Assembly: GCA_016930435.1 (NCBI GenBank)
Contig: JAFGGQ010000168.1
Coordinates: 1-33,676, forward strand
DNA: 33,676 nucleotides
Reading direction: 5' to 3'
From: a bacterium
GTDB taxonomy: Bacteria; UBP14; UBA6098; JAFGQG01
Each line of letters begins with the position of its first letter. The first letter of the stretch is position 1. Made by a program: the position numbers and the translations under genes. This document shows, in pieces, positions 4,694-29,543 of this stretch. The notes below the pieces were generated by a model. It was given only the letters and a program-made list of their open reading frames with translations, had not been told where the DNA came from and searched no databases.

Positions 4694-4743
4694 ACCGGAT
4701 CCCCGGTCATGAAAACCCCGGCCACTCAGGCCCGAATTGAGAT
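4694..4743. other. GC-rich dyad cluster, possible structured RNA or DNA site
   Basis: Within AT-rich DNA this 50-base island holds several self-complementary elements. ACCGG-ATCC-CCGGT (4694-4707) is a perfect five-base stem with a four-base loop. GGCC-ACTCA-GGCC lies at 4720-4732. CTCA at 4725-4728 can pair with TGAG at 4740-4743. The hexamer CCCCGG occurs twice (4701-4706 and 4716-4721), so alternative pairings are possible. No U-run follows, so it is not a standard terminator. Its function is unknown. Confidence 0.35.
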
Positions 4744-5102
4744 TTTATTCATACTTTAATTTTGTTTTATTTTATCTTTAATATAATTTTCGCAGGTTTT
4801 TGCTATAACTGATCGCTTTTTTATCTACTATATCATATTTTGTTTCCACCATTTGGGTGAAATCTTCTTGTTTAGGGTTAGTTCTTTAAAACCAAAATTT
4901 AGAATAAACCGGGGGGTTTCGCTGTTGTTTTTTTATAGTTACCGCTCAATATAGGTAGTAGCCTCAATTCTGATTACAACAGCTTTATTACCTTATTTCA
5001 ATAATTCTTGATTTTTAACAAATGATTTTGATGGTATTAAAAGAGAGCCTAATTTAGTGGTGGGATAGAGGTGGATTGGGCAGTACCCGTAAACAAATTT
5101 AT

Positions 5103-11497: not shown

Positions 11498-14400
11498 ATG
11501 TATAAAATGCCTGATAATAAATCCTATCTATATATTTATCTTTTGCCCTTTATATTTATCATCTTAATATGCTTTAACGGGTATGGAGCAGGGCCCTTTT
11601 CGCACACCCGAGTTTCCACTCCGTCCAGCCAGCTTGTCCCCCTGATAATAATAATGGAGCAACAGGCCGAGGCGAATGACCTACAGGCTTTCAAGCTTCT
11701 TAGCATTGAGGAGCGGAGGGACTCTGCCATTTCAATATTAAAAGGGATTGCCGAAAATACCCAGGCTCCTATTTTCTATGCATTGCGGCAATTAGAGCAG
11801 GAAGGGATAATCAAGGGTATCCGGAGTTTATGGATCATCAATGCAATTTCCTTGTATTCCCCCGAGGAGTGGATTCCACAGCTTGAACAATTGCCCGGAA
11901 TACGCAAGGTAACCATTGACCACCCACAACCAGCGTTACTCTCGGTGACGACTCCTTCTGACACTACCTGGGGTTTGACCCGCATTCAGGCTTTAGAGAT
12001 CCGGGAGAATCTCGGATTAATGGGAAAATCGGTTCTGTTAGCTATTCTGGACACCGGGGTAGGATACAATCACCCTGACCTGTTCGGGCAGATCTGGCGT
12101 AATTTAGGTGAAATTCCCTATGATGGTATCGACAATGATTCCAACGGCTATGTGGACGACTGGCATGGTTACAATTTTGCTGACAGCAGCGGAGAGGTTG
12201 CGGATAATGAGGGTCATGGAACCCATGTTGCGGGTAGCATTGTAGGGGATGGTAGTCAGGGGACGTATATCGGGGTAGCGCCTGAGGCACGGTTAATGGT
12301 CTGCAAGGTATTGTCCAGTTCGGGTTCAGGCCGTCAGGCCAATGCCTGGGAGGGAGTGCAATATGCGGTTCAGGAGGGCGCGCAGGCAATGAATCTATCC
12401 ATAGGTTGGCGTTATACCGATGGCGGTGATCGTTCCTCCTGGCGTACGGTAGTCTCCAATGCGGTTGCCGCAGGTGTAGTAATGGTTATTGCAGCGGGTA
12501 ATGAACGTTCATTTGGCGAACCGCCACCCAATAACATGAGGACCCCCGGGGACGTCCCGGAAGCGTTGACCATAGGTTCTACTACATTTATCGACAGCCT
12601 TTCCTCTTTTTCCAGCATCGGGCCGGTGGGCTGGGGTGAGATCGAACCGTTTTTTGATTACCCCTATCCCCCCGGACTCCTTAAACCGGATATTAGCGCT
12701 CCGGGAAGTGAAATACTATCATCCACATTAGGGGGAGGATACGGGAATAACAGCGGGACATCTATGGCTTCTCCGCATGTTACCGGGACGGTTGCCCTTA
12801 TGCTTCAGGCCAATCCTGAACTAAGTCCGGAAGAGGTAAAAGGATTCATTCAGGCCTCAGCGGTGGACAGGGGCCCAGCAGGACCGGACAGCCTATTCGG
12901 AGCAGGGCGGTTAAATTCCTACCAAGCCGTGCTGTTAGCCATGGAAGAAGTCTCATCCATCTCGGGGACCTGCCTCCCACCCGCAATTATCAACATTTCA
13001 CCGGGTTACCTGACCTTTTTCTGCGAATCACCGGGCGGAGAATATTCCGCCATACTGAAAGCCGATACTACCTATCAGATTACCTTCTCCCAATTCGGGT
13101 ATTATCCCGAAACACTTTATGTTTATTTGCCTCCGGATACCGCCCTTGAAATTGATATAAGCCTGAGCATCCTCCCTACTATTACCGTTAATATGGAGGT
13201 ACGCGATTTCGACAGCGGTGAACCGGTCCGATTCTCCAAAATCCATTTTCAGGATGATCATCTTTCTAGGCTTGATGGGGATTCCCTTGGATTAGTGGTT
13301 TTAGAATCAATCCCGATTTTCACCGATATCGGATTAACCATCGCCTGTCCCGGATATGCAAGCGAAATCCGCAATTATCGTTTTAGAGCTGATGATGGAG
13401 ACCAGACCATTCATGTATTCTTGCATGCCGCTTTTGATTTTGAAAGCGACAGCGGCTCATTATTCACAACCGGTGCTATCAACGACGATTGGGAATGGGG
13501 AATCCCGGGTTTCGGACCAGATTCTGCCCGTTCCGGAGTCATGGTATGGGCTACAGGTCTGGATACCGCTTACTCCAATACTTCCGATTCCCGGCTCTAT
13601 ACTCCGTCATACTATCTACCAAGTGGTTTCTCGCCACGGGTTTCCTTTTTTCACTGGTACGACTCCGAGGCTACAAGCTGGGGCTTCTGGGACGGTGGGA
13701 ATCTGTCTATTTCCGTGGATGATGATTCTTTCCGGGTAATCTATCCCGAGAACGGTTACAGGGGTATCATAGACCCTTACGATTCAATCCTGGCTTATCA
13801 ACCTGCATTCAGCGGAACTACCGGCGGGGATTTTTGGCATCAGGTACAGTTCGATCTCACACCCTTCGAGGGCTCTGAAGTATCCTTTATGTTTCATTTC
13901 GGAAGTGATGACAATACCATCCGGCCCGGGTGGTACATAGATGATCTTTCAGTAATTCCGCGGATGATCCGTGGACCATGGATATATTATCAGCAGGACA
14001 GCTTTTTTATTGCGTGCGGGGATAGCTTTCCCATTCGCTGCAGGGTACTGCCGGTAATCAATCCAGTTAATCCTTCACTCAGCTGGGCTATATACTCCGA
14101 GGATTCCCTGTTTTTTTCACCGGACTCGATTCCTTTCACCGGGTTTTACAGCGATTCCTATTATGCTGCTATTCCCCCTGTACCAGGTGCTGAAAGGGTA
14201 TATTATTATCTGGTTTTCAGGGATAGCGCCGGTATCGCCAGCGTGAGCCCGGAAGGGGCTCCACACGCCTGTTTTGCTTTTTGGGTGGGTTCGGACACCA
14301 CCCCCCCGGTAATCAGGGTCGTTCAGCGGCCTTATTATCAGGCTATGGACAGAAGCGGCAGCTACGTGGTCAAAGCCGACATCTATGACAACTGGCTTCT

Positions 14401-15448
14401 GGATAGTTCTTCAGTTTACCTTTACTGGCGCAAGAACCGTGGACCCGAGAACGCCATCCTTTTTGATTCCCGAACAGAAGACCTGTACCTGTTTAATATC
14501 AACGCTCCCGCTGAAGTGGGCGACCTCTTTGATTTTTACATCTCTGCTTCAGATGCCGCCCTGAGTCCCAATACCACACGCTATCCGGAAACTGATTACC
14601 TTTCTTTCGAAATTGTAGGGGAGTTATTCTGGGATTTTGAGAGCGGTGCTGACTTTACAACGTTGAATGGAATTTGGCAATGGGGCGCACCGGACGGGAT
14701 CGTTCCCTTTTCCGGGGATCAATGCTGGGGCACCATACTAAATGATTCCTATCCCCCCAATTCCCGCGATTTTCTTTACCTACCCCCACTAAAGCTTGCC
14801 GGATTTGATAACTTCACCCTGACCTTCTGGCATTGGTACGCTTTCGCCGGGGATGCTTCCCCCTATTCAGATGGCGGAAACATTCAACTCGTTAACACTT
14901 CCGATTCTATTTACATTCTCACCCCTTTGTCAGGCTATGATGGAATAAGCACCCCTGAAACGTTCGGGGGTAACCCGGTATTCGGAGATTCAAGCGGAGA
15001 CTGGCGCATGGAAACAATTAATCTTAATCCTTATGCCGATGATTATATCCAGATCCGTTTTGCCTTCGCTGCTGACCATTCAATTGAAGATCTGGGATGG
15101 TATATAGATGCAGTAAGAATCGACACCAGCTTCCTGAAAATTGCCGATACTCCCAACAATCGGCCCGGACAATATCAACTCCTTCCTGCTTTCCCAAATC
15201 CTTTTAACCTGGCCACCAGAATTTGTTACATTCTTCCCGGCGGAGAGCACTCCATCAAGCTGGGAATATATAATTTGCAGGGTAAAATAGTGAAACAATT
15301 AGCGGAAGGAGAACATGAAGGAGGGCAATATACGGTTATCTGGAACGGCAGAAACGATGCCGGTATTGAGCTTCCCAGCGGGATATATTTTATTTCATTT
15401 ATAGCAAATAATAATTCTATTGTCAATACTTTATTGTTGTTGAAATAG
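11498..15448 (+). CDS. Large secreted subtilisin-like (S8) protease with duplicated accessory domains
   Basis: A 1316-residue exported serine protease. After a signal peptide and a prodomain-like region (to about residue 160), the S8 catalytic domain shows Asp185 in ILDTGVGYNHPDL, His240 in GHGTHVAGS, AAGNE for the oxyanion-hole Asn, and Ser422 in GTSMASPHVTG. After about residue 490 come a carboxypeptidase-regulatory-like beta domain and a lectin-like module (about 645-825). An Ig-like spacer follows, then a second similar module (about 1045-1210). Both modules share FDFESG-like openings, FFHWY or FWHWY, and GWYIDD or GWYIDA ends, as in M6 immune-inhibitor-A-type accessory domains. The last ~90 residues (FPNPFNLATR to LLLLK) are the sorting-type domain. 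It probably degrades extracellular protein together with the M1 peptidase, with which it seems co-transcribed. Confidence 0.92.
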   Translation: MYKMPDNKSYLYIYLLPFIFIILICFNGYGAGPFSHTRVSTPSSQLVPLIIIMEQQAEANDLQAFKLLSIEERRDSAISILKGIAENTQAPIFYALRQLEQEGIIKGIRSLWIINAISLYSPEEWIPQLEQLPGIRKVTIDHPQPALLSVTTPSDTTWGLTRIQALEIRENLGLMGKSVLLAILDTGVGYNHPDLFGQIWRNLGEIPYDGIDNDSNGYVDDWHGYNFADSSGEVADNEGHGTHVAGSIVGDGSQGTYIGVAPEARLMVCKVLSSSGSGRQANAWEGVQYAVQEGAQAMNLSIGWRYTDGGDRSSWRTVVSNAVAAGVVMVIAAGNERSFGEPPPNNMRTPGDVPEALTIGSTTFIDSLSSFSSIGPVGWGEIEPFFDYPYPPGLLKPDISAPGSEILSSTLGGGYGNNSGTSMASPHVTGTVALMLQANPELSPEEVKGFIQASAVDRGPAGPDSLFGAGRLNSYQAVLLAMEEVSSISGTCLPPAIINISPGYLTFFCESPGGEYSAILKADTTYQITFSQFGYYPETLYVYLPPDTALEIDISLSILPTITVNMEVRDFDSGEPVRFSKIHFQDDHLSRLDGDSLGLVVLESIPIFTDIGLTIACPGYASEIRNYRFRADDGDQTIHVFLHAAFDFESDSGSLFTTGAINDDWEWGIPGFGPDSARSGVMVWATGLDTAYSNTSDSRLYTPSYYLPSGFSPRVSFFHWYDSEATSWGFWDGGNLSISVDDDSFRVIYPENGYRGIIDPYDSILAYQPAFSGTTGGDFWHQVQFDLTPFEGSEVSFMFHFGSDDNTIRPGWYIDDLSVIPRMIRGPWIYYQQDSFFIACGDSFPIRCRVLPVINPVNPSLSWAIYSEDSLFFSPDSIPFTGFYSDSYYAAIPPVPGAERVYYYLVFRDSAGIASVSPEGAPHACFAFWVGSDTTPPVIRVVQRPYYQAMDRSGSYVVKADIYDNWLLDSSSVYLYWRKNRGPENAILFDSRTEDLYLFNINAPAEVGDLFDFYISASDAALSPNTTRYPETDYLSFEIVGELFWDFESGADFTTLNGIWQWGAPDGIVPFSGDQCWGTILNDSYPPNSRDFLYLPPLKLAGFDNFTLTFWHWYAFAGDASPYSDGGNIQLVNTSDSIYILTPLSGYDGISTPETFGGNPVFGDSSGDWRMETINLNPYADDYIQIRFAFAADHSIEDLGWYIDAVRIDTSFLKIADTPNNRPGQYQLLPAFPNPFNLATRICYILPGGEHSIKLGIYNLQGKIVKQLAEGEHEGGQYTVIWNGRNDAGIELPSGIYFISFIANNNSIVNTLLLLK

Positions 15449-15499: not shown

Positions 15500-17209
15500 A
15501 TGTTAAAAAGGTTACTGTTGAGCATTGTATTAGTTTTGATATTTTCTGCTTCTGCGACACTTCCGGATACTGAGAACCCCCTTCTGAAAGCAATGGAGGA
15601 GGAATTGGAGCGTTCGTTTGCTGCTCTCAGGGATACCGGAGATGCCCCATTGTATTTTTTGAATTATGCTGTTACTGAAGAGAAAGGGCAGTCCGTATCG
15701 GCTGAATTCGGGGCTCTGATCAGCAGTGATGAATGGCATGATCGCTACCTGGATGTGGATGTAAGGGTGGGTTCTATGGATCTCGATAACACCCATGAGA
15801 TAAGGGAAGAGGGTTTTGGATCTTTACTGGATTTCAGCGGCCAGATCCCTACGGAAATGCCCCTGGACAGTTCTCCGGAGGTCGTCAGGCGTTTTTTATG
15901 GCTAAAAACCGATGAGGAATTCAAGGCTGCACAAAAACGATTTATCAAGGTGCAGCGCAACGTTGCGGTAAAGGTAGAACAAGATGATACTTCCCCGGAC
16001 TTCAGTCCGATTGATCCGTCGGTAGAGTTAGGCCCTTTATCCTCGGAGTCTTTTGATCAGGAGCTATGGAAGGAAAAAACCCGGAAATTTTCCCAGGTAT
16101 ATAAGAAGTATGAAAAAATATTAAACTGCAGGGTAACCTTGCATCTTGAGAACATTAACAAGTACATTGTCAGTTCGGATGGTACTCGGTTGCGTTTTGG
16201 CCAAAGTTATATTCGTTTATCTACTTTTGGGGTTGTAAAGGCTGATGATGGGATGCATCTTCATCGTTATCTAATCTTTGATGCCGCCCGAATGGAGGAG
16301 CTTCCTGATGATACCGTGATAGAGGCCAGTATTGATAGTCTGATCCAGGACCTTTTAGCGCTAAGGGAGGCTCCTGTTGTGGAGCCTTATTTGGGTCCCG
16401 CAATATTGAGGAATAAAGCCAGCGGAGTATTTTTCCACGAAATATTTGGGCATCGTATCGAGGGACACAGACAAAAGACCGAGAAGGAGGGCCAGACATT
16501 CGCCAAGAAACTGGGAGAACAGATATTGCCGGAATTCATTTCGGTTTATGATGATCCCACCCTGAAATATTACGATAAAACATTTTTACGGGGTTATTAT
16601 GAGTATGATGATGAAGGTGTAAAGGCAGAAAGAGTAAACGTTGTAGAAGACGGCATATTAAAGAATTTTTTATTGAGTAGAAGCCTTGTGGAGGGCTTTA
16701 ACTGCTCAAATGGCCATGGCAGGCGAAACCATACAAACCAGGTTACTTCACGGCAGGGCAATCTTATAATTGAATCCCAAAAAACCTTACCCTTTTCAGA
16801 GTTAAGGGAAATGCTGATCCAGGAATGCAGGGATCAGGGTAAGGACTGGGGTCTGATCTTCGAGGATATTTCAGGCGGTTTCACTATGACCATGAAATAT
16901 TTGCCCCAGGCTTTCAAGGTAATGCCCCTTAAAGTCTGGCGAGTATATACCGATGGCAGACCTGACGAGCTTGTACGGGGAGTTGATATTGTGGGTACAC
17001 CGTTGACCAGCTTCAGCAAAATATTAGCTACCGGCGATGATTATCTGGTATTCAATGGCACCTGCGGAGCGGAATCAGGTTATATTCCGGTTTCTGCGGT
17101 ATCACCTTCGATACTGGTCTCTCAAATCGAAATCGAAAAGAAGTCCAAAAGCCAGGATAAGCCGCCTGTACTTCCTCCACCCGGCAAAAAGATAAATATC
17201 GATAATTAA
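15500..17209 (+). CDS. Exported TldD-family metalloprotease homologue, zinc site intact
   Basis: A 569-residue protein of the TldD/PmbA (peptidase U62) family. E. coli TldD is a cytosolic metalloprotease that acts in a TldD-TldE heterodimer, trimming unfolded peptides such as the microcin B17 leader. This copy carries a clear signal peptide (MLKRLLLSIVLVLIF, cleavage near residues 18-20), so it should work outside the cytoplasm. The signature HEIFGH (His313, Glu314, His318) and the distal Cys522 in GTCGAESG match the three zinc ligands plus catalytic Glu. The central ISVYDDP and the GHGRRNHTNQ loop are also typical. A family-unlike proline-rich tail ends the protein. The ribosome binding site AAGGAGG (15484-15490) is one of the best in the window. 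It lies 51 bases after the subtilisin gene. A degenerate paralogue lies at 26429-28225. Confidence 0.9.
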   Translation: MLKRLLLSIVLVLIFSASATLPDTENPLLKAMEEELERSFAALRDTGDAPLYFLNYAVTEEKGQSVSAEFGALISSDEWHDRYLDVDVRVGSMDLDNTHEIREEGFGSLLDFSGQIPTEMPLDSSPEVVRRFLWLKTDEEFKAAQKRFIKVQRNVAVKVEQDDTSPDFSPIDPSVELGPLSSESFDQELWKEKTRKFSQVYKKYEKILNCRVTLHLENINKYIVSSDGTRLRFGQSYIRLSTFGVVKADDGMHLHRYLIFDAARMEELPDDTVIEASIDSLIQDLLALREAPVVEPYLGPAILRNKASGVFFHEIFGHRIEGHRQKTEKEGQTFAKKLGEQILPEFISVYDDPTLKYYDKTFLRGYYEYDDEGVKAERVNVVEDGILKNFLLSRSLVEGFNCSNGHGRRNHTNQVTSRQGNLIIESQKTLPFSELREMLIQECRDQGKDWGLIFEDISGGFTMTMKYLPQAFKVMPLKVWRVYTDGRPDELVRGVDIVGTPLTSFSKILATGDDYLVFNGTCGAESGYIPVSAVSPSILVSQIEIEKKSKSQDKPPVLPPPGKKINIDN

Positions 17210-17545
17210 TAGGCTTTGAATTACTTGAAATAATAATACCGTAGATGAAAAAATATTGCAGAACAAGAATACTTTACTATTAAACAGCCTTATTAATGAT
17301 ACATTAAGAAAAAGCTATGATAATTGAGGTTCGAACTGGAGATAATAACTGGATAAATTTCGTGGGTTAAAAGGGGATTTGGATTGAAATAGAATTAGCG
17401 GTATCAAGAATTTAGGCTTGCTAATTTTGCTTATATTTAGATATTATAATGTTAATAGTATGACATTAGTTTTCTGGAAATATTACCTGATTTACTATGG
17501 TAAAATTGTGAATCGCAATTTAAAATAACAACTTTAGGAGTATTT
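17210..17545. other. 336-base gap inside the secreted block
   Basis: No gene seen. The gap is AT-rich and probably carries a promoter for the genes from 17546 on. A perfect TATAAT lies at 17445-17450, but no good -35 box is at the right distance. A dyad AAATTG-TGAATCG-CAATTT (about 17503-17521) sits shortly before the ribosome binding site AGGAG (17536-17540) and could be an operator. No terminator is evident after the TldD-like gene. Confidence 0.4.
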
Positions 17546-19585
17546 ATGTCGATAAGGACTTCACTATTTTTAACAGTGTTGGTTTTAACACTAATATTCA
17601 CCTCCTCGTTTGCCTGGATCTATCATGGCAACTACGGTTATTATCATGATGAGGCCCGGGACATCGTTATCTGTGCAGATGGAGGGTTTTTTATTACCGG
17701 GCGTTCATTGGCCTGGGCAGCGGGTGACTACGATTGGGAGGTTTTTCTGGCGAAAATTGATGCCATGGGTAACGAGGAGTGGGTCAATCATTACGGGCAG
17801 ATCGGGGAGGGTTACTACGATGCCGGCTGGAGCTTGTGCGCAACGCCCGATTCGGGTTGCCTGATTGCTGGTAAAACCCAGTCGCCCCAATGGTGTTCTT
17901 ACCCTTACTGGGACAATATGCTTTTGGTAAGGGTTGACAAATACGGCGATACCCTTTGGACCAATGCCCATGGGGGTTACTATTTTGACCGCGCCTGGTC
18001 CATAATCTCTATTCCCGGTACCAACGAGTTCTATATTGCCGGTTGTACTCACACTCATGGGCCGGGCACCCCTGATGCCGACCAATCCAATATGTGGGTG
18101 ATGAGGGTGGACTCCCTTGGAAATATCATTTATCAGAACGCCTGGGGCAATTTTCTTCCAGGCACATCCGATTGCCGGTGGTGCTGTTTGGCGCACGACG
18201 GGGGCGTAGTTATCGCCGGAAATACCGCCGATCACGACACTACCTATACCGAAGATGATACCCCGATTACTCGCCGGATCTGTAAGACCGCAGTTGTGAA
18301 ATATGATGAAGAATGCAACCAGGAATGGGAAAGGATATACGATAACCGCTACTTCCATTATACACGGGGAATCACCCCATCACTTGATAGCGGATATGTA
18401 GTAACCACCTACGATTGGGATCCAAATGTAACCTGGGTCTTAAAATTGGATATAGATGGCGATACCCTTTGGACCAAGCATATCTCACTGGATTCCACAG
18501 GTACCAGGGCGAGGGTGAATTATTATATGGTTTGTCCCGCGCCGGACAGCGGTTTTTATTTCGCTGGCGGAGGGGGCGGCGCTGCCGTTATACTATACCT
18601 GGATCAGCATGGCAACGAGGTTTGGGAATATGGTTTTGATTGGGGCAGTGAATCCGAGAACTTTTTATCCTGTAAAATGACCCCGGACAGTGGCTGCGTA
18701 GCTACCGGAGTAACCTACTCTTATTATCACCACTCATATATGGATGTATTTGCCGGGCGGGTGGACCGCTGGGGACATGACGTTTCCTACTACCACCTCC
18801 TATCCGGATGGGTCTTCGACCAGATTACCATGGAACCAATCGCCGGTGTGAATATTTACGATACCACATCGACTTACAGCACCACCAGCCTTCACGGGGA
18901 TTCCGTGGGCATCTATTATATTGATGATATCGTAAGCGGGAATTATACCTTCAAAGCTGAGCATCCGGATTACCGTACCCGCTTCATCGACCTCAGCTTC
19001 TCAACCTTCGGCCACCAGGATTTCTACTTGATACCGGCAGTTGGTTTCAACCTCAGCGGAATGGTCGTTGATGAATCCGAGGTCCCAATTGATGGAGCAA
19101 TACTTACCGCTGTTACTGCTGAAATGACAATAGTAGATACTTCCTGTTGCGGAGGCCACTATTTACTCGGAGACATCCCGGGATATATGGTCGCTACTGT
19201 TACCATCGTAGCTGACAGCTTTCTACCTGAAACCCTGTGCATTAACCTGCGAAATCACCTGGAACGCAATATCCGGATTATCAGCAGTACCCGTATAACT
19301 GATAGAGGACCACTCACTCCCCAAAAATCAGATATCAGTTGCTATCCTAATCCCTTCAATGCATCCTGCAGGATTGAAGTGCTCGAATCGGGTAAACTTC
19401 AAGATATAACTTATATCCGTATTTATGACCTATTGGGTAATCTGGTTGAGCAGTTCGGGCCGGAAACCTTTGCTGATAATCGCGTAACCTGGACCCCGGA
19501 GCCCATACTATCCAGCGGCATTTACCTAATTTCATGCAGTAGCGGGGATATGATCATCAATAAAAGGATCGTACTATTAAAATAG
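17546..19585 (+). CDS. Secreted propeller-like protein with carboxypeptidase-regulatory and sorting-type domains
   Basis: A 679-residue exported protein of unknown function. After a signal peptide (cleavage near Ala23) residues 24-415 hold repeats of the type DGGFFITGRS...VFLAKIDAMGNEEW, with recurrent PDSGCLIAG-like and VDKYGDTLW-like segments. This is the pattern of delta-60/PQQ-like beta-propeller repeats in secreted proteins of FCB lineages. Two carboxypeptidase-regulatory-like beta domains follow (about 418-495 and 500-580), with openings such as LSGWVFDQITMEPIAG and LSGMVVDESEVPIDG. The last ~85 residues (CYPNPFNASCR to RIVLLK) are the same sorting-type domain as in the M1 and S8 proteins. 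No catalytic motif is visible. It may be a surface binding or scaffold protein. AGGAG lies five bases before the ATG. Confidence 0.8.
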   Translation: MSIRTSLFLTVLVLTLIFTSSFAWIYHGNYGYYHDEARDIVICADGGFFITGRSLAWAAGDYDWEVFLAKIDAMGNEEWVNHYGQIGEGYYDAGWSLCATPDSGCLIAGKTQSPQWCSYPYWDNMLLVRVDKYGDTLWTNAHGGYYFDRAWSIISIPGTNEFYIAGCTHTHGPGTPDADQSNMWVMRVDSLGNIIYQNAWGNFLPGTSDCRWCCLAHDGGVVIAGNTADHDTTYTEDDTPITRRICKTAVVKYDEECNQEWERIYDNRYFHYTRGITPSLDSGYVVTTYDWDPNVTWVLKLDIDGDTLWTKHISLDSTGTRARVNYYMVCPAPDSGFYFAGGGGGAAVILYLDQHGNEVWEYGFDWGSESENFLSCKMTPDSGCVATGVTYSYYHHSYMDVFAGRVDRWGHDVSYYHLLSGWVFDQITMEPIAGVNIYDTTSTYSTTSLHGDSVGIYYIDDIVSGNYTFKAEHPDYRTRFIDLSFSTFGHQDFYLIPAVGFNLSGMVVDESEVPIDGAILTAVTAEMTIVDTSCCGGHYLLGDIPGYMVATVTIVADSFLPETLCINLRNHLERNIRIISSTRITDRGPLTPQKSDISCYPNPFNASCRIEVLESGKLQDITYIRIYDLLGNLVEQFGPETFADNRVTWTPEPILSSGIYLISCSSGDMIINKRIVLLK

Positions 19586-19595
19586 AATATCTAAA

Positions 19596-20225
19596 ATGCA
19601 ACGCTTGTTTTTCATAATGTCTCTGACCTTTTTATTCTCTTCTGCGCCTGAAGCGGCTTATGAATTCCCCCTGCTCTTAGGAGTGGGAAGCGGAGGTTTG
19701 AAATCTTACCAGATAACCACTTCAGCAGGTTTGCGAAACTTCCGGGAATGGCCCCTTCCCTGGACCGACCTTAATTTTAATGCGCATTTAAACCTGAAAT
19801 ACAGGGCTCATTACTATGATAAAGGCCAAGATACACGTGAAGGGCTTTACAACCAAATTATGCTGAATTTCAGGTTTGGAAGTATATATATCATCCGGGA
19901 CCTCGCCAGCGTGGGTCTGGCAGGAGGATTATGCTATTCCCGATTCCATGATTTCAAGACTTTCTTACCCTTAATGGGCTTTAGTTTCAATGCAGACTAT
20001 TCCTTCTTATGGGAAAAAGACCTCTTGCTTATGGAAGGATTCATCATGTTCGCTCAGGATTATATGCTATGCGAGGTTATACTATCCGGCTATGTTTACC
20101 GGAATTTCAGAATATATAGCGCTTTTTCCTATGACGGGGAATTTGACCATTATTCCCATAAAGGCTATAATAATGCTATGTTATGGGCTTTTGGAGTGGA
20201 GTATTCAACCATTAACGAAAGATGA
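19596..20225 (+). CDS. Small exported protein, possible outer-membrane beta-barrel
   Basis: A 209-residue protein with an N-terminal signal (MQRLFFIMSLTFLFSS). I do not recognise the family. The mature part is rich in aromatic residues and has alternating hydrophobic/polar strands with Gly and Tyr turns, such as LNFRFGSIYIIRDLASVGL, and aromatic strand ends. The pattern fits an 8-stranded outer-membrane barrel of about 190 residues. Unlike classic barrels it does not end in Phe, and its last residues are charged. It follows the propeller protein by ten bases, has no clear ribosome binding site, and precedes the paired Asp-box proteins, so it is probably in the same transcript. It could anchor or export a neighbour, but that is only contextual inference. 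Confidence 0.6.
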   Translation: MQRLFFIMSLTFLFSSAPEAAYEFPLLLGVGSGGLKSYQITTSAGLRNFREWPLPWTDLNFNAHLNLKYRAHYYDKGQDTREGLYNQIMLNFRFGSIYIIRDLASVGLAGGLCYSRFHDFKTFLPLMGFSFNADYSFLWEKDLLLMEGFIMFAQDYMLCEVILSGYVYRNFRIYSAFSYDGEFDHYSHKGYNNAMLWAFGVEYSTINER

Positions 20226-20253
20226 AAAAGATTAGATTTATCAGGGAGGTTTG

Positions 20254-23200
20254 ATGCTAATAAAACGTTTGATTATTTTGGGAACCCTGATTCTGTGCTT
20301 AACTGCCTTTTCCGCAAACAGTGCTAACATAGTAGCCCGGGAAGTTTATGGAGTAGGTTCTGGTTTGAATAACCAGCGGACAATCGTCCGGGACTCGGAG
20401 GGAAATCTCTATGTTGCTTATCCTGGCTTTGATGGCTTCAATTACCAGATCTTCGTAGCATTTTCCGAAGACCGGGGAGAGAGCTGGGAAAGTGAGTGGG
20501 CTATTATCACGGAGGGTGAACTTGACAATATACAGGTTACCCTGGCGATAGACTCACACGATACCTTGCACCTCGTATGGTGCGGAAATCTAAGCGCTAA
20601 TGATGCGGACCTTATGTACCGCAGATATCCAGGTGGAGTTAACACTGTTATCTGCACCCAAACGGGTTATCCGGGGGCGCATTGTCCTTCCCTGGCAGTG
20701 GGTCCGGATGATGATCTCCATGTAGTCTATAGCGGTTGTCCTCAATCCTGGCTGGTCCGTTATCTTCATTATGATCGCCGAAGCGGGTCATGGGAAGCGC
20801 CTGTGGACATCGGCACTCATACCCCCTCCCGTTGGCCATCTGTGGAAGTTAACAGCGATAATGAAGTCCATGTGATCTACCGTAACCAACCCGCTGCTCA
20901 TTATCAGGCAGCTCACCGGGCTTGTGTCGGCGGGATATGGCAGCCCGTCGAACAAATAGATGCAGTACTAAATTCCATGGAATACACTTCTATCTTCATC
21001 GATGAGAATGACCATATTCATGCGGTTTGGCTTCTCCGCAACACCTTCTACGGAAATCCCGACACCATCCGTTACCGCCGCTATGCATACGGGGATTGGG
21101 AGGAAATCCTTACCATTTTCGGAATTGACACATCTTTGACCTACAGTGGCGATGTCGTCGTCGATGCCGAAAGCACCTGTTATGTATTCTATCATGATTT
21201 CGATTCATGCTACATGCGGCGGTCATGCTGTGGGGGCACAGATTTTGAACCCGAGATTACTATAACAACATTGCCGGGCTGCAAATTTCCAAACGCCCGG
21301 GGCTCAAAATACCCCTATTTCAACCGTGTCGAGAGTGCATGTATCGATTTCGTTTATACCTGGCGTCACCCCGACTCCACCGTAAATTACCTGATGTATG
21401 ACAATCTCTGTCCCTATACTCCCGAGACAACCGCAATTTCAGCCCGGTTTATCTTCCCGGAGGAGGGCTCATATACATCCTGCCAGGACCAGTCCATCCT
21501 TATCTCGTTTTCCAGCGAGGAAACAATGATAGAGCGTCTGGATATTCCAAGCCTGGCAACAACTACTGAGTATTTCGATACACTGACCGATAGCTGGCGC
21601 CCCGCAGTCGAAGTCCACTATTCCGGTTGGGGCTCCTATCTGCTGCCTGGAAGCAGCTGGCTCTGGGACAGTACCTACTCCGGTTCTATATATTACCGCT
21701 GTTTAACCTTCCGCAGCATTTTTGAAACTCCGCCCGGAGCAATTATCGATTCCGCATTTGTGACCATGTACGCAGATAACAGCGCTACTTTCCTTATGAA
21801 TGGCATCGTGATCGGGATGGACGACGACGGTTCAACCTGGAATCATGCTTTCACATTCGATATGCTCCCTTACATGCACGGGGGAATTGATACACTTTCC
21901 GCTGTCGTATGTGATCTGACCGGCGTAGCGGTAGGTTTTAACTTCCTGGCCTCGGTATTTTACAGGGTTAATTGCGAGATCGATTCGAGTTCAATTATCT
22001 TCTCCATTAACAGCGAACGTTATGAACTGGGGGATGGCTACCTGAACCTTGCCCTGGATACACTCCTGGTCTGGACCCCATTAGAACCTCTTGAAGACGG
22101 GGATACATTGAACGCTTTCCTGATCGCTTTGGAGGATAATTGCGGTGGGATACTGGAAACTCCAATATCCAGAACCTTTTACGTGGACCTTTCCCCACCT
22201 GTAATTACGAATATCATCCCTCCACCGGGAAGCATGGCCGACGGGATATTCCCTACCATCCAGTTCTGCCTGAACGATCAGTTCTCGGGTGTTGATACCA
22301 GCTCGCTAATTTTACTCGTTGACGACAGCCTTTCGATCCCATCTATATCCTGGAACGAGGACCACTGGGAGGTCAGCTGGACACCGGAAGAGGCATTCAG
22401 CTCCGGAGGAGAGGTCAGGATTTGTCTTATTGTTACCGATTCTACAGATTATTGCGCGGACAATATTCTTGATACATGCTGGTATTTTATGATAAATACA
22501 GATACGCTATTCCTAACTTTACCGGAAACTTCCGCTTATGCTGGTGATACCATTCTGATACCGGTTTATTCCGGAGATGTATCGGGTCTTTTTATTACTT
22601 CAATTTCCATGTGTATTTGGAGCGATCCCGCAGTCCTTCAACCGCTGGGGATTCAGACTCCCGGTTCCATCCTCGGATCCTGGTCAGACATAAATGATAC
22701 CATTACTGAAAGTACGATATGCCTGGAGGCTTCAGGAACTGCTTTATCAGGTGATTCAGTACTGGTCTTTTTAAAGTATGTAGTAAACGCTGAGGGATAT
22801 GGCGGACTATATTCAAGTCTCGATTTCGATCTTCTTATCTGCAATGAAGGCTCAATCAATACTGTAACCCAGAATGGCATTCTAACCATTCTCTGGAATT
22901 ATCCCGAATGGTTATCTGACTTGGTATTTTCAAGTCCGATTTTTCCCAACAGCAACACCTTGACCTTTGGGGTTTCCCGGACCGGTAGTGAAGGTTTCGA
23001 TCCCGGACTGGACATTATCTGGTTACCCAGCGGGGAAGCTTTTATGTCATGTTTTCCACTTGACGATACTGATTATCCCCATATTCAGAAACTGGACAGA
23101 GATATACGTTACTCCCGGGAGTTGCCCGTCACCTGGCTGGTTGATTTAAAAATCGATCCGGAAAGCGCTTCATGGGAAGTCGAATGGTTCCCCGAGTATC

Positions 23201-23769
23201 TTCCTGAAGGCAAACTGGAGATTTACAAGCTGGATGGTCCGCATTTCGATATGCATACTAACAACGTCTTCCGTGGTACCGGAAATGATTATCTTTTTAT
23301 TACATATTCTCATCCCGGTATTGCGACTCCGGTGATCAGTCTTGAATACGGGTGGAATCTGATTTCTTTCCCGGTAATACCCACCGGTTCCAGAACATTT
23401 GGTGAGCTTTTACCTGCTATGGCTGGTGCAGCTTACTGGTACAATCCATTGATCAGAAGCTATGAAGAAAAAACATTCCCGGAAGCTGGAAAAGGTTACT
23501 GGATATTTTCCACCGAACCCGCTGAATTAATTATCGGCGGAATGGAAGTGGATCATTATGTTGTTCCTGTTTACCCCGGTTGGAATTTGATCGGGGTTCC
23601 CTTCTCACCGGTAGGTACGGTTCCAACATCTACCGATTGCTGGGGCTTTGATCACGAAATGGGAAGATATGAAGATGCTTCAGGAATATTGGAATTATGG
23701 AAAGGGTACTGGTACTTCTCCGGTTCTGAAGGGACATTGAGTGCTGACAGCACCGGTTTATGGCCATAA
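20254..23769 (+). CDS. Large secreted Asp-box propeller protein with Ig-like and cohesin-like domains (paralogue 1)
   Basis: About 1171 residues; I start at ATG 20254 rather than the TTG one codon upstream, because GGGAGG (20244-20249) is better spaced. After a signal peptide, residues ~25-390 form a sialidase-like propeller with an Asp-box (SEDRGESW) and repeated DSHDTLHLVW, DDLHVVYSG, ENDHIHAVW segments. Next come Cys-containing beta domains (SCQDQSILISF), an Ig-like PPVITNIIPPPGS domain, and a region near residues 750-875 resembling a cohesin fold (AGDTILIPV, then DPAVLQPLGIQTPGSIL). The C-terminus has two GWNLI repeats (GWNLISFPV, GWNLIGVPF) with GKGYWIF or WKGYWYF, seen in exported proteins of candidate phyla. 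It lacks the PNPFN domain. No sialidase Arg triad is evident, so glycan binding is more likely than hydrolysis. Confidence 0.82.
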   Translation: MLIKRLIILGTLILCLTAFSANSANIVAREVYGVGSGLNNQRTIVRDSEGNLYVAYPGFDGFNYQIFVAFSEDRGESWESEWAIITEGELDNIQVTLAIDSHDTLHLVWCGNLSANDADLMYRRYPGGVNTVICTQTGYPGAHCPSLAVGPDDDLHVVYSGCPQSWLVRYLHYDRRSGSWEAPVDIGTHTPSRWPSVEVNSDNEVHVIYRNQPAAHYQAAHRACVGGIWQPVEQIDAVLNSMEYTSIFIDENDHIHAVWLLRNTFYGNPDTIRYRRYAYGDWEEILTIFGIDTSLTYSGDVVVDAESTCYVFYHDFDSCYMRRSCCGGTDFEPEITITTLPGCKFPNARGSKYPYFNRVESACIDFVYTWRHPDSTVNYLMYDNLCPYTPETTAISARFIFPEEGSYTSCQDQSILISFSSEETMIERLDIPSLATTTEYFDTLTDSWRPAVEVHYSGWGSYLLPGSSWLWDSTYSGSIYYRCLTFRSIFETPPGAIIDSAFVTMYADNSATFLMNGIVIGMDDDGSTWNHAFTFDMLPYMHGGIDTLSAVVCDLTGVAVGFNFLASVFYRVNCEIDSSSIIFSINSERYELGDGYLNLALDTLLVWTPLEPLEDGDTLNAFLIALEDNCGGILETPISRTFYVDLSPPVITNIIPPPGSMADGIFPTIQFCLNDQFSGVDTSSLILLVDDSLSIPSISWNEDHWEVSWTPEEAFSSGGEVRICLIVTDSTDYCADNILDTCWYFMINTDTLFLTLPETSAYAGDTILIPVYSGDVSGLFITSISMCIWSDPAVLQPLGIQTPGSILGSWSDINDTITESTICLEASGTALSGDSVLVFLKYVVNAEGYGGLYSSLDFDLLICNEGSINTVTQNGILTILWNYPEWLSDLVFSSPIFPNSNTLTFGVSRTGSEGFDPGLDIIWLPSGEAFMSCFPLDDTDYPHIQKLDRDIRYSRELPVTWLVDLKIDPESASWEVEWFPEYLPEGKLEIYKLDGPHFDMHTNNVFRGTGNDYLFITYSHPGIATPVISLEYGWNLISFPVIPTGSRTFGELLPAMAGAAYWYNPLIRSYEEKTFPEAGKGYWIFSTEPAELIIGGMEVDHYVVPVYPGWNLIGVPFSPVGTVPTSTDCWGFDHEMGRYEDASGILELWKGYWYFSGSEGTLSADSTGLWP

Positions 23770-23781
23770 ATTAATAAAAAA

Positions 23782-26370
23782 ATGAAAAAAACGCTGATTA
23801 TATTTACCTTTCTGACCATTCTTATTTGTTCCGGGTTGACCGGCGTAAGCTCTGCGGTATTGGTTGCCCGTAATGTTCATCCATCCGCCGCCGGCCTGAA
23901 TAACCAGCGCCAGATCGTCCGTGATTCCAGCGGAAAATTATACATTGCCTATCCCGGTTATGATGGCGCTCACTGGCAAATTTTCATTGCCTGTTCTGAC
24001 GATAATGGGGCTACCTGGGACCCACTGTGGGCGACTATAACTTCCAATGCTTTGGATGACCTTCAGGTCACCTTGGCTATCGACTCACACGATACTCTGC
24101 ATTTAGTCTGGAAGGGCAACCTGGCTTCCAACGATGCGGATTTGATGTACCGTAAGTATCCTGGTGGTTCGAACTATTCGATCTGCAATAGTACTTCATA
24201 TCCGGGGGCAAACTGCCCTTCACTCGCCGTTGGACCCAATGATGACCTTCATGTAGCTTATTCCGGATGCCCTTCTTCCTGGAGTATTCGTTATTTGCAT
24301 TTTAACCGTAGTACGGGAACGTGGGATCCGCCAGAAAACGTAAGTTTTCTTAATCCGTCCCGGTGGCCCTCGATAGAAGCGGATAGCGCTAACGATGTTC
24401 ATATAATTTATCGAAATCAACCAGCTTCACACTACCGGGTAGCCCATAAGGCTAAAATTAGCGGGATATGGCAACCCGTAGAACAATTAGACATACTGCT
24501 TAATTCGGTGGAGTACACCTCTCTCTTTATTGATAACCAGGAAAATCTCCATGCCACATGGGTGTACAGGAATACCTTCTACGGTAACCCTGATACGGTC
24601 AAGTACCGTCGGTATAACGATAACACCGGTACGTGGGAGGGTGTACGCCGTATCTTCGGAACTACTCTCTCCCTGACTTATGATGGTGATGTAGTGGTGG
24701 ATACAAGCGGCAACATCTACGTGCTTTACCATATTTTCGATTCATGTTTCGTTACAAAATCCACTGATAACGGAGTTACTTTTTCGGGGGATAGTTGTTT
24801 TACGTCATTTCTGGGCTCCCGTTATCCAAACGCCCGGGGTTCCAAATACCCACCCTTTAACCGGGTAACAGATGGCTGTCTGGACGTAGTATATACCTGG
24901 ACCCATCCCGACAGTATGGTAAGTTACCTGGTCTATGATAACCTATGCGGGATCATCCCCGAAGAGGAGGAAACAACCTGGCTTTGTGCTAATTTTATCG
25001 AGCCCAATGAAAACAGCTACAGCTCCTGCTCCGACCAGCAAATTGTCCTGAATGTTGGCTGTTGTGATATAGGGGATTCAATGCGATTCATCTCCAATAC
25101 GAACTCGGTGGAGTTCCTTGATTCCACCACCATGACCTGGGAACCGGCATTCGCCCCTGATCCTTCTATTTGGCTTTCCTTGACCCATATCCCTGATGCG
25201 GTCTGGATTTGGACCGATGATTATCCTGCACCAAGCTACCATGGCGATTGGTTCCGAAGCATCATAAACAGCGGATGCAGTGAGATCGATTCAGCCTGGA
25301 TCGGAGTGCAATGTGATAACCAGGCTACTGTTTATATGAATGGGACCTATGTGGATACCACGCATGGAAATTCCGGTTCTGGTTATGCCGGCTGGCGAAC
25401 ACGTTATGAATTTAACCTTACCCCTTATATGCATGGTGGGCTGGATACACTGACGTTCATAGGATTCAACTCCGGCGGCCAGGCTGGTCTGATTTTTGAG
25501 GTGTTCGTACTCTGCAAAGGGGCTTGCTGCGGGGAGATCGAACCTGCCGGATTCGAATTCTCGGTCAACGGAGAGTCTTTTTTCATCTCCGATCCCGAAT
25601 TATCCTTTGATGGTGATTCCCTGCTAACCTTCACCCCATTGCCACCCGATACTTTCGGGAACGGGGATACAATCCACGCATGCCTGCTGAATGCGGCTGA
25701 CACCTGCGGCGGAGTGCTGGATTCCGTAATCTGCAGGTACTTCTTTATTGACCTATTACCCCCCGCGATCCGGGGAATCCAACCCGCTATCGATACCACT
25801 ATTACCGATACCACTTTCATCCTTGAATTCTTCCTGCATGATTCCCTTTCCGGCCTCGATACAACCAGCATCTTCTTAAATGTAAACGGAATGGAAATAA
25901 CTCCGCTGATCGACTGGCAGGACAGTTTATGGTATCTTAATTGGAGCCCTCCCTCAGCATTCAGACGGGGAGACACTATTAATATATGTCTGGTCGCATC
26001 AGACACTACGGATTATTGCCCCGACAATGTTCTGGATACTTGCTGGTCATTTTACATACAGCCCTGCGTGCCCATTGAAACCTGGCTGCTCTGCCCGGCT
26101 ACTACAGACTGGTCATCATGCACAACCCAGGTTTCCCGGTTTGGAGCCCGGGATTCCACAGGTTTCGGAATCGATACCAGCAAGGTGTTTTTTTCCGCAA
26201 TAATCCAGCACGCCCCGGGTATTTTAGATACCATAATCCCAGACCATACCTTCAGATACTCTGATGATACACTTTTTATTGATGTTCGCGGAGAATGGGA
26301 GGACGGGGATACCGTTACTGTTATCCTTGATTCACTTTTCTCCAATGATGGGTGTAAAACTATACCCTGA
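23782..26370 (+). CDS. Secreted Asp-box propeller protein, shorter paralogue 2
   Basis: An 862-residue exported protein, a tandem duplicate of the preceding gene. The first ~390 residues align without large gaps, about 60% identical by eye. They include the same GLNNQR and IVRDS opening, the Asp-box (SDDNGATW) and the block VTLAIDSHDTLHLVW. The middle beta domains also correspond (SCSDQQIVLNV; TPYMHGGLDTL; SDTTDYCPDNVLDTCW). It then diverges. Where paralogue 1 has the cohesin-like and GWNLI regions, this one starts another Cys-containing Ig-like unit and stops at DSLFSNDGCKTIP, apparently in mid-domain. No other frame downstream resumes a homologous sequence. It may therefore be C-terminally truncated, or naturally ends so. 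It starts only 12 bases after paralogue 1 with no visible ribosome binding site. Confidence 0.8.
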   Translation: MKKTLIIFTFLTILICSGLTGVSSAVLVARNVHPSAAGLNNQRQIVRDSSGKLYIAYPGYDGAHWQIFIACSDDNGATWDPLWATITSNALDDLQVTLAIDSHDTLHLVWKGNLASNDADLMYRKYPGGSNYSICNSTSYPGANCPSLAVGPNDDLHVAYSGCPSSWSIRYLHFNRSTGTWDPPENVSFLNPSRWPSIEADSANDVHIIYRNQPASHYRVAHKAKISGIWQPVEQLDILLNSVEYTSLFIDNQENLHATWVYRNTFYGNPDTVKYRRYNDNTGTWEGVRRIFGTTLSLTYDGDVVVDTSGNIYVLYHIFDSCFVTKSTDNGVTFSGDSCFTSFLGSRYPNARGSKYPPFNRVTDGCLDVVYTWTHPDSMVSYLVYDNLCGIIPEEEETTWLCANFIEPNENSYSSCSDQQIVLNVGCCDIGDSMRFISNTNSVEFLDSTTMTWEPAFAPDPSIWLSLTHIPDAVWIWTDDYPAPSYHGDWFRSIINSGCSEIDSAWIGVQCDNQATVYMNGTYVDTTHGNSGSGYAGWRTRYEFNLTPYMHGGLDTLTFIGFNSGGQAGLIFEVFVLCKGACCGEIEPAGFEFSVNGESFFISDPELSFDGDSLLTFTPLPPDTFGNGDTIHACLLNAADTCGGVLDSVICRYFFIDLLPPAIRGIQPAIDTTITDTTFILEFFLHDSLSGLDTTSIFLNVNGMEITPLIDWQDSLWYLNWSPPSAFRRGDTINICLVASDTTDYCPDNVLDTCWSFYIQPCVPIETWLLCPATTDWSSCTTQVSRFGARDSTGFGIDTSKVFFSAIIQHAPGILDTIIPDHTFRYSDDTLFIDVRGEWEDGDTVTVILDSLFSNDGCKTIP

Positions 26371-26428
26371 TGGTATATTTATGGATACCTGACAATAATA
26401 TATTAATCATTAATATTCAGGAGGAAGC

Positions 26429-28225
26429 ATGTGGAAGCCTAAAAGCAAAATTCTTGCCCTTCTATTACTTTTCTTTTACCTTACAAGCGGGTTATTTGCA
26501 AAGGAGAATGACCCCATTTTTCAGGCTTTAAATGACGAGATGATCCGGTCTTTAAATGAGCTTAAAATGCAAAATTTAGAGAAACCATATTTTATTTCCT
26601 GCGGTATTCAGGAAAGACAGTCCGTCGAAATTGAAGCTTCATTCGGGGCAATATTGAACAGCGATTCGGACCATTACCGGGAGCTGGCAATCGATCTGAG
26701 AATCGGCGACTATAAGTTTGACAATTCCAATTATGGTATGGACTTTATGAATATCATGGTCGGGGGAGGCGGACCCTTTGATATGGATTATAGCAGCACA
26801 AAAAAGGTTACCCTTGACAATGATTATGACATCCTCCGTCACCAGATCTGGTATGAAATGGACGGGGCCTATAAACAAGCCCTGGAGGATTATGCCGGAA
26901 AAAAGGCGGCCTTATCAGGTGCTCCCCAGGAGGAAGATGCTCCCGGGGATCTCAGCCAGGAGCAACCCCAGGAATATTATGAACCCCCATTAGAATGGAC
27001 CATTGATAAAATGGTGTGGGAAAATAATCTAAAGGAAGTATCAGCCGTCTTTAACAACTATCCTTTTATTAAGGAATCCTATGTGCATTTCAACGCAGTC
27101 AATAACCGCAATTATATCCTTAACACAGAAGGGACCAGGGTAGTTTTCAATGATCTTAGCTTCACGGTCTCTATTTCGGCTATGATGCAGGATGAAGATG
27201 GTTTTCAGAGAGGGGATAATTACAGTGTTTATGGCTTCGAGCAAGGCGATCTGCCTTCACTGGCCGAGTTAAAAGCGGAAGCTGAAAAATTGGCCCGGGG
27301 CTTGCAACGGCTCAGCGATGCTGATACAATTAAGTATTATGTCGGTCCGGTTCTCTTTGAGAAGGATGCTTCTATCTCTTTATTCAGCAATCTTTTAGCT
27401 AAGAAATTAATTGCTTTTGATCTACCCGTTGTGGAGGCAAGTCAGTCGATGTTCATGAAGCCCCTGATGGAACAAATGGGAATGGGGGATAATATCGGAA
27501 AAAAGATTGCTGCCGGTTTTATTTCCATCTATGATGATCCCACAATTGTTGAATATAAAGGGATAAAATTAGCGGGGCATTACAAATACGATCTGGAAGG
27601 GGTCATTGCTCAGCGTGTGGTGCTCTGTGAAAATGGTATTTTAAAGCAGGTTCTTAATCATCGCAAACCGACTAAAAAACAACCCACTTCAAACGGACAC
27701 GCTTTGCTGGGCAGCCCCGGTGGCAATGTAAAACCATCCATTAGCAACCTGTTCATTAAGGCAGAGGAGACAATCTCAAGTGAAGGGCTTATCGAGCAAT
27801 TCAAACAGAAGTGTTTAGAGAACGGCTTGGAATATGGTTTGATCATTCGTAATTTTTATACCCCCTCTTCCGAGAAGGAATTAATGAAATCGGTATTCAG
27901 TTCGATTATGAGCATTGGAGGAGGGGGCAAGCTGAATATTCCCATGGATCCTCTTTATATATATAAGATCGATCTGGAAACGGGAAATGAGACCTTGCTG
28001 AAAAATCTGCAGATTGACAATCTTGATGATAATTCTCTGAAGGACATCATACTCGCTTCAGAGGAGGAATACCTTTTGAATCGTGGTAGTACGACTTTGG
28101 GCAGTTCGATAGGGGTTGCCATCGTTGCGCCTGAAATGATAGTGATTGATGATCTGGAACTTTCCTGGAAACAGCCTTCTTCAGAGGAAAAGCCATACCT
28201 CCCAAATCCCAGTTTTGAGAAGTGA
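26429..28225 (+). CDS. Exported TldD-like protein with destroyed zinc site (TldE-like partner?)
   Basis: A 598-residue paralogue of the TldD-like protein at 15500. The signal peptide (ILALLLLFFYLTSGLFA, cleavage after Ala24) is again clear. The alignment is evident throughout: opening ENDPIFQALNDEM against ENPLLKAMEEEL; FGAIL; the AGFISIYDDPTIVEY block; HYKYDLEGVIAQRV. At the zinc site the HEIFGH of the partner is SNLLAK (Ser320, Asn321, Lys325), and the distal Cys segment is RGSTTLGSS. All three ligands and the catalytic Glu are gone, so it cannot be a zinc protease of the known type. In E. coli, TldE likewise lacks the motif and pairs with TldD. A structural partner or substrate-holding role is inferred. 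GGAGGAA lies before the ATG. An acidic Gln/Glu/Pro-rich insert occurs near residues 165-190. Confidence 0.85.
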   Translation: MWKPKSKILALLLLFFYLTSGLFAKENDPIFQALNDEMIRSLNELKMQNLEKPYFISCGIQERQSVEIEASFGAILNSDSDHYRELAIDLRIGDYKFDNSNYGMDFMNIMVGGGGPFDMDYSSTKKVTLDNDYDILRHQIWYEMDGAYKQALEDYAGKKAALSGAPQEEDAPGDLSQEQPQEYYEPPLEWTIDKMVWENNLKEVSAVFNNYPFIKESYVHFNAVNNRNYILNTEGTRVVFNDLSFTVSISAMMQDEDGFQRGDNYSVYGFEQGDLPSLAELKAEAEKLARGLQRLSDADTIKYYVGPVLFEKDASISLFSNLLAKKLIAFDLPVVEASQSMFMKPLMEQMGMGDNIGKKIAAGFISIYDDPTIVEYKGIKLAGHYKYDLEGVIAQRVVLCENGILKQVLNHRKPTKKQPTSNGHALLGSPGGNVKPSISNLFIKAEETISSEGLIEQFKQKCLENGLEYGLIIRNFYTPSSEKELMKSVFSSIMSIGGGGKLNIPMDPLYIYKIDLETGNETLLKNLQIDNLDDNSLKDIILASEEEYLLNRGSTTLGSSIGVAIVAPEMIVIDDLELSWKQPSSEEKPYLPNPSFEK

Positions 28226-28364: not shown

Positions 28365-29543
28365 ATGAATATAGAAGAGAACTTATCCGGCCAGAGTTCC
28401 ATTAATGAAGATAGTTTTGAAATAGAGTTAAACCATGGCGACAATATAATCGGGATCAATATGGAGATCAGCAACAGGATACATCTTATCGATCTGATGT
28501 TGAATGCCTTACAGATAACCTATCGCGGCAAAATACCTGTGATACTCAAGAGGATCCATTTTACATTGCTGAATGATGGTTCTCCGCTTCATGAATTAGT
28601 TCTCAAGGAACGGTTGCTGGAGGAGGAGATCTGTGGAGTTTATCAATATATTACTTCTAATAAAGATAATCCAAATCATCTTAAGGTAGTTTTCGGCTCG
28701 GATAATTTTTTTAAGATTAGACAGCTTACTTCAGAGATCAACCTGGAGTCCGGTCAATCCATCGGGATTATCAACAAGCATTTTTCTTTACAAACCGGAG
28801 AGAAGGTTGACGCTCTGGAGATTTCGGTATTAGGTAAAACCCTGGATGATAAATTTCTGTATTCTTCACAGGTATTCAAATACAACGTTTACAAAAACCG
28901 GCAAAAGCTGCTTTTCCCTTTAGGGGGCACCTGGTTATCCTGTAATAATTTTGATTATATTTATGCACATCGAAGATGTTGGTCGCAGGAATTTGCCCTG
29001 GATTTTGTTCAGTTAAGTATTGATGGCAAATTATTTAAAGGACAGGAGCCTGGTTTAAACGAGAATTGGGCGTGTTACGGGCAGGATGTTTATGCTCCCG
29101 CCGACGGTGTGGTAGTGGATATAGTTGATGGTATTCCCGATAACCCCGGTGGATTTGCCAGCCGGCTGCCAGGAAATCAATTAGAGGAAATCTATAAACA
29201 ACGGGGTTTCAAAGCTGTAATGGCGGGTAACTATATTGTTTTGGATCATGGTCAAGCCGAATTCAGTTTCCTGGCTCACCTTCAACCTTTCAGTCTAACC
29301 GTAGAGCTTAATGATAAGGTCAAGGCCGGACAACTCCTGGGCCGTATCGGGAATAGCGGCAACTCCGATGCTGCACATCTTCATTTTCAGTTGATGAATG
29401 GCCCCGATTTCCTTACAGCGAAAGGGTTGCCCATGGTTTTTAACAACCTGACTGATATAAGCGGTGCTCCCGTATCCTTTATATATCCCAATAATTCTAT
29501 TATAAGCACTTCCGGTGAGAAAAAACCAAAAAAGAATAGTTAA
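28365..29543 (+). CDS. M23-family metallopeptidase without signal peptide
   Basis: A 392-residue protein with a C-terminal LytM/M23 domain. M23 enzymes are zinc endopeptidases that usually cut peptidoglycan cross-links or peptides. The metal site is complete by pattern: His202 and Asp213 (segment HRRCWSQEFALDF), His305 in LAHLQP, and His338/His340 in AHLHFQ, after the usual VYAPADGVVVDIVDG and GRIGNSGNS turns. The N-terminal ~190 residues form a beta-rich domain that I do not recognise. There is no signal peptide or membrane segment, unusual for a cell-wall enzyme. It may act inside the cell or leave by another route. AAGGGAG is four bases before the ATG. The stop codon overlaps that of the convergent amidohydrolase gene. 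Confidence 0.85.
   Translation: MNIEENLSGQSSINEDSFEIELNHGDNIIGINMEISNRIHLIDLMLNALQITYRGKIPVILKRIHFTLLNDGSPLHELVLKERLLEEEICGVYQYITSNKDNPNHLKVVFGSDNFFKIRQLTSEINLESGQSIGIINKHFSLQTGEKVDALEISVLGKTLDDKFLYSSQVFKYNVYKNRQKLLFPLGGTWLSCNNFDYIYAHRRCWSQEFALDFVQLSIDGKLFKGQEPGLNENWACYGQDVYAPADGVVVDIVDGIPDNPGGFASRLPGNQLEEIYKQRGFKAVMAGNYIVLDHGQAEFSFLAHLQPFSLTVELNDKVKAGQLLGRIGNSGNSDAAHLHFQLMNGPDFLTAKGLPMVFNNLTDISGAPVSFIYPNNSIISTSGEKKPKKNS

Follow-up and report, generated by a model that had tools for sequence, protein, structure and literature searches.

Two exported TldD homologues at one locus

The stretch of DNA analysed here, referred to as the window, is a single contig of 33,676 nucleotides (JAFGGQ010000168.1) from a bacterium of the lineage UBP14, whose draft genome (GCA_016930435.1; here G000) amounts to 2.85 Mb and is 90% complete. 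The window encodes two exported homologues of the peptidase subunit TldD. We refer to the active-type copy as A and to the catalytically dead copy as D.

15500–17209, + strand: A, exported active-type TldD homologue, 569 amino acids (aa); signal peptide at about residues 1–19, HEIFGH at 313–318, Cys522 as third ligand
26429–28225, + strand: D, exported catalytically dead TldD homologue, 598 aa; signal peptide at about residues 1–24, ligand positions occupied by S320, N321, K325 and S554

Both genes had been recognized in a first-pass annotation of the sequence as exported TldD homologues, one retaining HEIFGH and Cys522 and the other having lost them, and this description is confirmed. Each open reading frame (ORF) is preceded by a good Shine-Dalgarno match (AAGGAGG 5' of 15500 and AGGAGG 5' of 26429) and begins with an N-terminus resembling a type I signal peptide, MLKRLLLSIVLVLIFSASA-TLP in A and MWKPKSKILALLLLFFYLTSGLFA-KEN in D. 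The C-terminal TldD domain (PmbA_TldD, PF19289) is matched at 114.9 bits by A and at 62.7 bits by D, against a cut-off of 22, and the two proteins align over their full length with 25% identity (8e-55). Neither protein matches the first TldD domain (Pfam domain 1) at E 0.01; the predicted fold nevertheless covers this region despite the sequence divergence. A also misses the NCBIfam TldD equivalog thresholds (84.1 bits versus 635 and 38.4 versus 513). In the PDB, A has a sequence match to Escherichia coli TldD. The same search with D returned no real match, the best being a serpin at E 0.14, so structure comparison was needed for this protein. By C-terminal domain and fold, A and D belong to the TldD/PmbA peptidase family (MEROPS U62).

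In E. coli TldD the metal ligands are His262, His267 and Cys454 and the base is Glu263; all of these ligands are missing from TldE (PMC5810440). A carries the TldD arrangement, with H313, E314 and H318 forming the HExxxH motif and C522 as the distal cysteine, and these four residues are invariant in all 85 aligned A copies. The first histidine and the cysteine are absent from all 85 D copies, and the second histidine is at most rare. Conservation extends to 47 columns shared by A and D and to 24 found mainly in D, including R40, P53, K149 and K158, indicating that D is maintained rather than decaying.

Conservation of the pair across genomes

We scanned public genomes with A and named 80 loci, the best-scoring of 553, a selection that favours the paired type. 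D follows A on the same strand at 79 of the 80; at the remaining one the contig ends shortly after A. The two genes usually lie within about 100 nt of each other, the median distance between the A and D domains being 81 nt. At one locus the gap widens to 1.2 kb, and gaps of about 9 kb occur only in the window and in G001 (L059), the nearest sampled genome and a member of the same family. The loci span about 13 phyla, named as deposited: Planctomycetota, Acidobacteriota, Verrucomicrobiota, Melainabacteria/Cyanobacteriota, Eisenbacteria, Zixibacteria, Cloacimonadota, Aminicenantes, Calditrichota, Elusimicrobiota, Electryoneota, Caldifarciminota and two metagenome-assembled genomes labelled Pseudomonadota.

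A broader and less biased sample of 386 genomes, repeated with another profile, gave an exported member in 36. The paired type of A is present in 14 of these genomes and D accompanies it in every one; a solitary A-like protein without D is found in 19. Two genomes (G143 and G279) have a solitary A-like protein together with a remote dead copy, and one (G363) is too fragmented to read. The initial scan of this sample scored no more than the three best first-look candidates in each genome and could therefore have missed a weak additional copy. Co-occurrence of the two types, which the first-pass annotation had put forward as a check on their pairing, is thus observed in both the named loci and the broad sample.

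In four lineages A and D are naturally fused in one open frame, with A first:

L063, Eisenbacteria
L110, Acidobacteria
L180, genome G169, open frame of 1158 codons
L046, genome G084, D half cut by the contig end

The fusion joints consist of a short linker and lack a second clear signal peptide, as would be expected if the A and D halves share one compartment.

Structure prediction of a natural fusion

The fusion L063 was folded with AlphaFold2 from an alignment (A6) containing only fusions and D rows, the latter placed on the second half. The resulting model of 1091 residues has a mean predicted local distance difference test score (pLDDT) of 87.0 and a predicted template modelling score (pTM) of 0.84, values that suggest a confident prediction of how the two halves are placed relative to each other. 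Superposition of the A half on E. coli TldD gives a Z score of 35.5 and a root-mean-square deviation of 3.3 Å over 447 residues. A joint alignment of fusions, A and D rows (A4) put the D rows on the active half and was not used for folding. The window D, predicted alone, has a pLDDT of 87.4 and a pTM of 0.88, and its model matches TldD at Z 24.5 and TldE at Z 22.9.

Origin of the dead copy

We built a careful tree of 74 sequences, in which cytosolic TldD and TldE serve as the outgroup, and a quick tree of 108 sequences. In the careful tree all exported proteins form one clade against the cytosolic ones (support 100/100). Within it, the A clade and the D clade, each supported at 100/100, are sisters (95/88), and the A+D clade adjoins the solitary exported active proteins. 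Descent of D from TldE was considered and rejected: grouping D with TldE costs 138 log-likelihood units (approximately unbiased test, p 1.4e-43). D arose by duplication inside the exported TldD-like clade, and the loss of its active site is separate from that of TldE. Since D is not a TldE, an inactive subunit has been acquired more than once by TldD-type enzymes. The earlier description of D as TldE-like therefore stands by analogy, as a dead subunit, and fails by descent.

The pairwise distances among A and among D proteins correlate (Mantel r 0.66, p 0.0001, 20 pairs), and D evolves about twice as fast as A. Taken together, the conserved adjacency and gene order, the four fusions, the mirrored trees and the confident fold as one unit give good support to the idea, already raised in the first-pass annotation, that the exported active and dead copies work as one unit.

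The two remote dead copies mentioned above, L188 (G143, contig C160) and L190 (G279, contig C227), are unpaired exported TldD homologues without HExxxH. L188 lies on a long branch and is sister to the solitary active copy of the same genome, L187 (100/100). It is likely to represent a third independent loss of the active site.

Cellular location

Judged by hydropathy, signal-like N-termini are present in 47 of 56 A copies and 64 of 67 D copies, and none of 14 cytosolic relatives reaches the threshold. Sorting tails of the type IX secretion system (T9SS) are found on three other proteins of the window, an S8 subtilase, an M1 aminopeptidase and the product of the ORF starting at 17546, and on neither A nor D. 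With Sec-type signals and neither a T9SS tail nor a lipobox, A and D probably stay in the periplasm after Sec export. A T9SS-specific role for the pair was set aside on the argument that A and D have no such tails; no search for T9SS was made in the other phyla.

Genes between and around the pair

Four genes separate A from D in the window, all on the same strand and all encoding proteins with signal-like N-termini, as the first-pass annotation had stated. These and three flanking genes are as follows:

9492–11474, + strand: secreted M1-family aminopeptidase with a T9SS-like tail (context)
11498–15448, + strand: secreted S8 subtilase with a T9SS tail, 51 nt upstream of A (context)
17546–19585, + strand: beta-propeller-type secreted protein with a CarboxypepD_reg-like domain and a T9SS sorting tail; probably cargo of the T9SS and outside the pair
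19596–20225, + strand: exported 209-aa protein of unknown family, between A and D
20251–23769, + strand: secreted 1172-aa BNR-like/cohesin-like protein, between A and D
23782–26370, + strand: secreted 862-aa paralogue of the preceding protein, without its C-terminal part
28365–29543, + strand: protein with an M23-family peptidase domain and no obvious signal peptide, just downstream of D; also in G001

An AT-rich stretch of 337 nucleotides lies between A and the first intervening ORF. The 1172-aa and 862-aa proteins are tandem paralogues, 45% identical, both of which are kept in G001; their domains are common to many other secreted proteins of this lineage. Relatives of the 209-aa protein, searched for in four genomes, occur in G000 and G001 only, at the same place. 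Further upstream, positions 5184–7751 encode an exported 855-aa protein with a C-terminal Peptidase_S74 (endosialidase chaperone) domain and a weak YadA-head-like match, an architecture resembling that of phage tails or adhesins. The genome G000 gives about 148 matches to the T9SS type A sorting tail and encodes a SprA homologue, indicating an extensive T9SS secretome.

Of the ten TldD-family matches in G000, two are the pair of the window; the others are a further exported A-D pair (L041, contig C110), whose genes are directly adjacent, and several cytosolic members. In G001 every gene of the window arrangement recurs: the same four genes split the pair and the same genes follow downstream. 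G001 also carries an adjacent pair of its own (L043). In G003 and G012, which belong to the same class as G000, the A-D pairs are adjacent. Thus these four genes split the pair only in G000 and G001, and the split is a derived, family-level insertion. To the question raised in the first-pass annotation, whether the intervening genes travel with the pair, the answer is no beyond this family. Because the insertion is limited to G000 and one relative of the same family, the four genes are probably not substrates of the pair.

Proposed mechanism and alternatives

We consider it probable that a shell of two subunits, A and D, encloses a single metal site in A and admits unfolded peptides, as TldD/E does; the chemistry and chamber of the latter have been described (PMC5810440). 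A and D would then be the subunits of one exported TldD-type metallopeptidase. By analogy with E. coli TldD, A would supply the catalytic site, with H313, H318 and C522 holding a zinc or iron ion and E314 activating water. D would complete the hollow two-subunit shell, like TldE. Unfolded or extended peptides would enter and, as with TldD/E, be cleaved with no strong preference for particular sequences, and the likely job would be clearance or trimming of peptides in the envelope. In the organism of the window such peptides may come from secreted proteases, among them the S8 and M1 enzymes whose genes lie a short way upstream of A; these enzymes fit a role in peptide scavenging, but their genes are not general neighbours of the pair. 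D would go back to an exported ancestor, probably a homodimer, whose gene was duplicated in an event separate from the origin of TldE, and in the lineage of the window four unrelated genes for secreted proteins would have been inserted between A and D.

Several points weigh against this reading. Mirrored trees and adjacency would also arise by simple co-inheritance. The solitary exported active proteins in 19 genomes indicate that some lineages can do without a dead partner. Apart from the partner, no neighbour is retained from phylum to phylum, which leaves the substrate unconstrained. In the window itself the two genes are 9.2 kb apart, and their balanced co-expression is therefore not assured. 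The signal peptides were judged by a hydropathy heuristic rather than a trained predictor. Finally, the two-subunit model is that of a fusion from another phylum, not of the window's own chains, and its active half was covered by four aligned rows.

Across phyla, no conserved third gene was found beside the pair; the only candidate, a permease gene in which LptF and LptG are fused (LptFG), is confined to Acidobacteriota. It lies directly after D at 14 of the 18 Acidobacteriota loci with enough sequence (L113, L115, L116, L124, L125, L127, L129, L131–L135, L137 and L138) and often overlaps the D stop by 4 nt. As the sole recurrent neighbour of known function found beside D, LptFG is a lead towards outer-membrane assembly. 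In E. coli K-12, tldD (L168, locus 3584–5029) adjoins yhdP, a gene of phospholipid transport, which is perhaps an echo of the LptFG link.

Another possible job, compatible with a heterodimer, is the maturation of one particular exported peptide or envelope protein, to which the protease would be dedicated; such a job may be tied to outer-membrane biogenesis. The Acidobacteriota linkage and the position of tldD beside yhdP are in its favour, as is the presence of the leader of a ribosomally synthesized and post-translationally modified peptide among the known TldD/E substrates (PMC5810440). However, LptFG is linked in one phylum only, and neither a precursor gene nor any other neighbour recurs across the phyla; we regard such a role as possible but not likely. 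The LptFG linkage also hints at a more specific version, in which a widespread exported heterodimer, with its inactive subunit separate from TldE, is a dedicated envelope peptidase controlling the assembly of the outer membrane or of lipopolysaccharide export. We find this doubtful, and quite unlikely as stated.

An unlikely alternative of a different kind is that A is a homodimer like the solitary active proteins and D a separate homodimer, acting as a regulator, peptide-binding protein or inhibitor and merely co-transcribed with A. The 19 sampled genomes that have an exported active protein and no dead relative are consistent with this arrangement. Moreover, TldE homologues crystallize as homodimers, and a homodimer of Sulfolobus TldD is reported to be active in work cited in PMC5810440. 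Against it stand the fusions known from four lineages, the near-universal adjacency seen for the paired type and the prediction of the fusion as one confident unit.

The first-pass annotation had suggested that the pair might process a peptide or tail of a neighbouring protein. It is very improbable that the substrates are propeptides or tails belonging to the four secreted proteins encoded between A and D. The four genes split the pair in identical order in both members of the family, and the genome has SprA and many proteins with T9SS tails, but the second pair of G000 and the pairs of G003 and G012 lack these neighbours, as do the pairs in many other phyla. The idea that D is a decaying pseudogene of A, suggested by the loss of all ligands and the doubled rate, can practically be dismissed in view of its intact full-length frames across phyla, its conserved columns, its single origin and its long retention.

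Significance of an exported pair

TldD and TldE are widely conserved. That about 13 phyla have an exported form, equipped with a pseudoenzyme subunit of its own, suggests that the envelope is another place where a chambered TldD enzyme is useful. The family also amounts to a repeated evolutionary experiment, in which what was presumably a homodimer would have turned into an active/dead heterodimer on at least two occasions, or perhaps three if the lineage of G143 is counted. Comparing these separate inventions can reveal whether the dead subunit serves gating, stability or substrate choice, and the natural fusions are ready-made single-chain enzymes for structure determination and assay.

Comparison with known systems

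The closest known system is E. coli TldD/TldE (TldD/PmbA), which has the same fold and combines one subunit carrying HExxxH and a distal cysteine with one dead subunit, in the two-subunit arrangement that is predicted for the exported pair. The two systems differ in several respects. TldD/TldE is cytosolic, whereas the exported pair carries export signals by the hydropathy heuristic. The N-terminal half of the exported proteins is too diverged to be recognized by Pfam's first TldD domain, the clamp residue Lys456 of E. coli TldD is replaced (CGAESG against CGKEG), the dead subunit is of separate origin, and the genes are adjacent or fused. The TldE homodimers of known structure (PDB 1VL4, 3QTD, 3TV9 and 1VPB) are likewise dead and share the fold, matching the window D at Z 21–23; D, in contrast, groups with the exported active proteins.

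The nearest outgroup of the pair is formed by the solitary exported TldD-type proteins (mostly HEA[IVLM]GH, for example L047–L051). They share the export signal, the long N-terminal region, the zinc motif and the cysteine, and differ in having no dead partner. In the open-access papers searched we found no description of these solitary proteins, nor of exported TldD pairs with an independently derived dead subunit; subscription papers were not covered, and the absence is weak evidence. The fold and chemistry of the family are already known, and what may be new is the exported paired form with its separately derived dead subunit.

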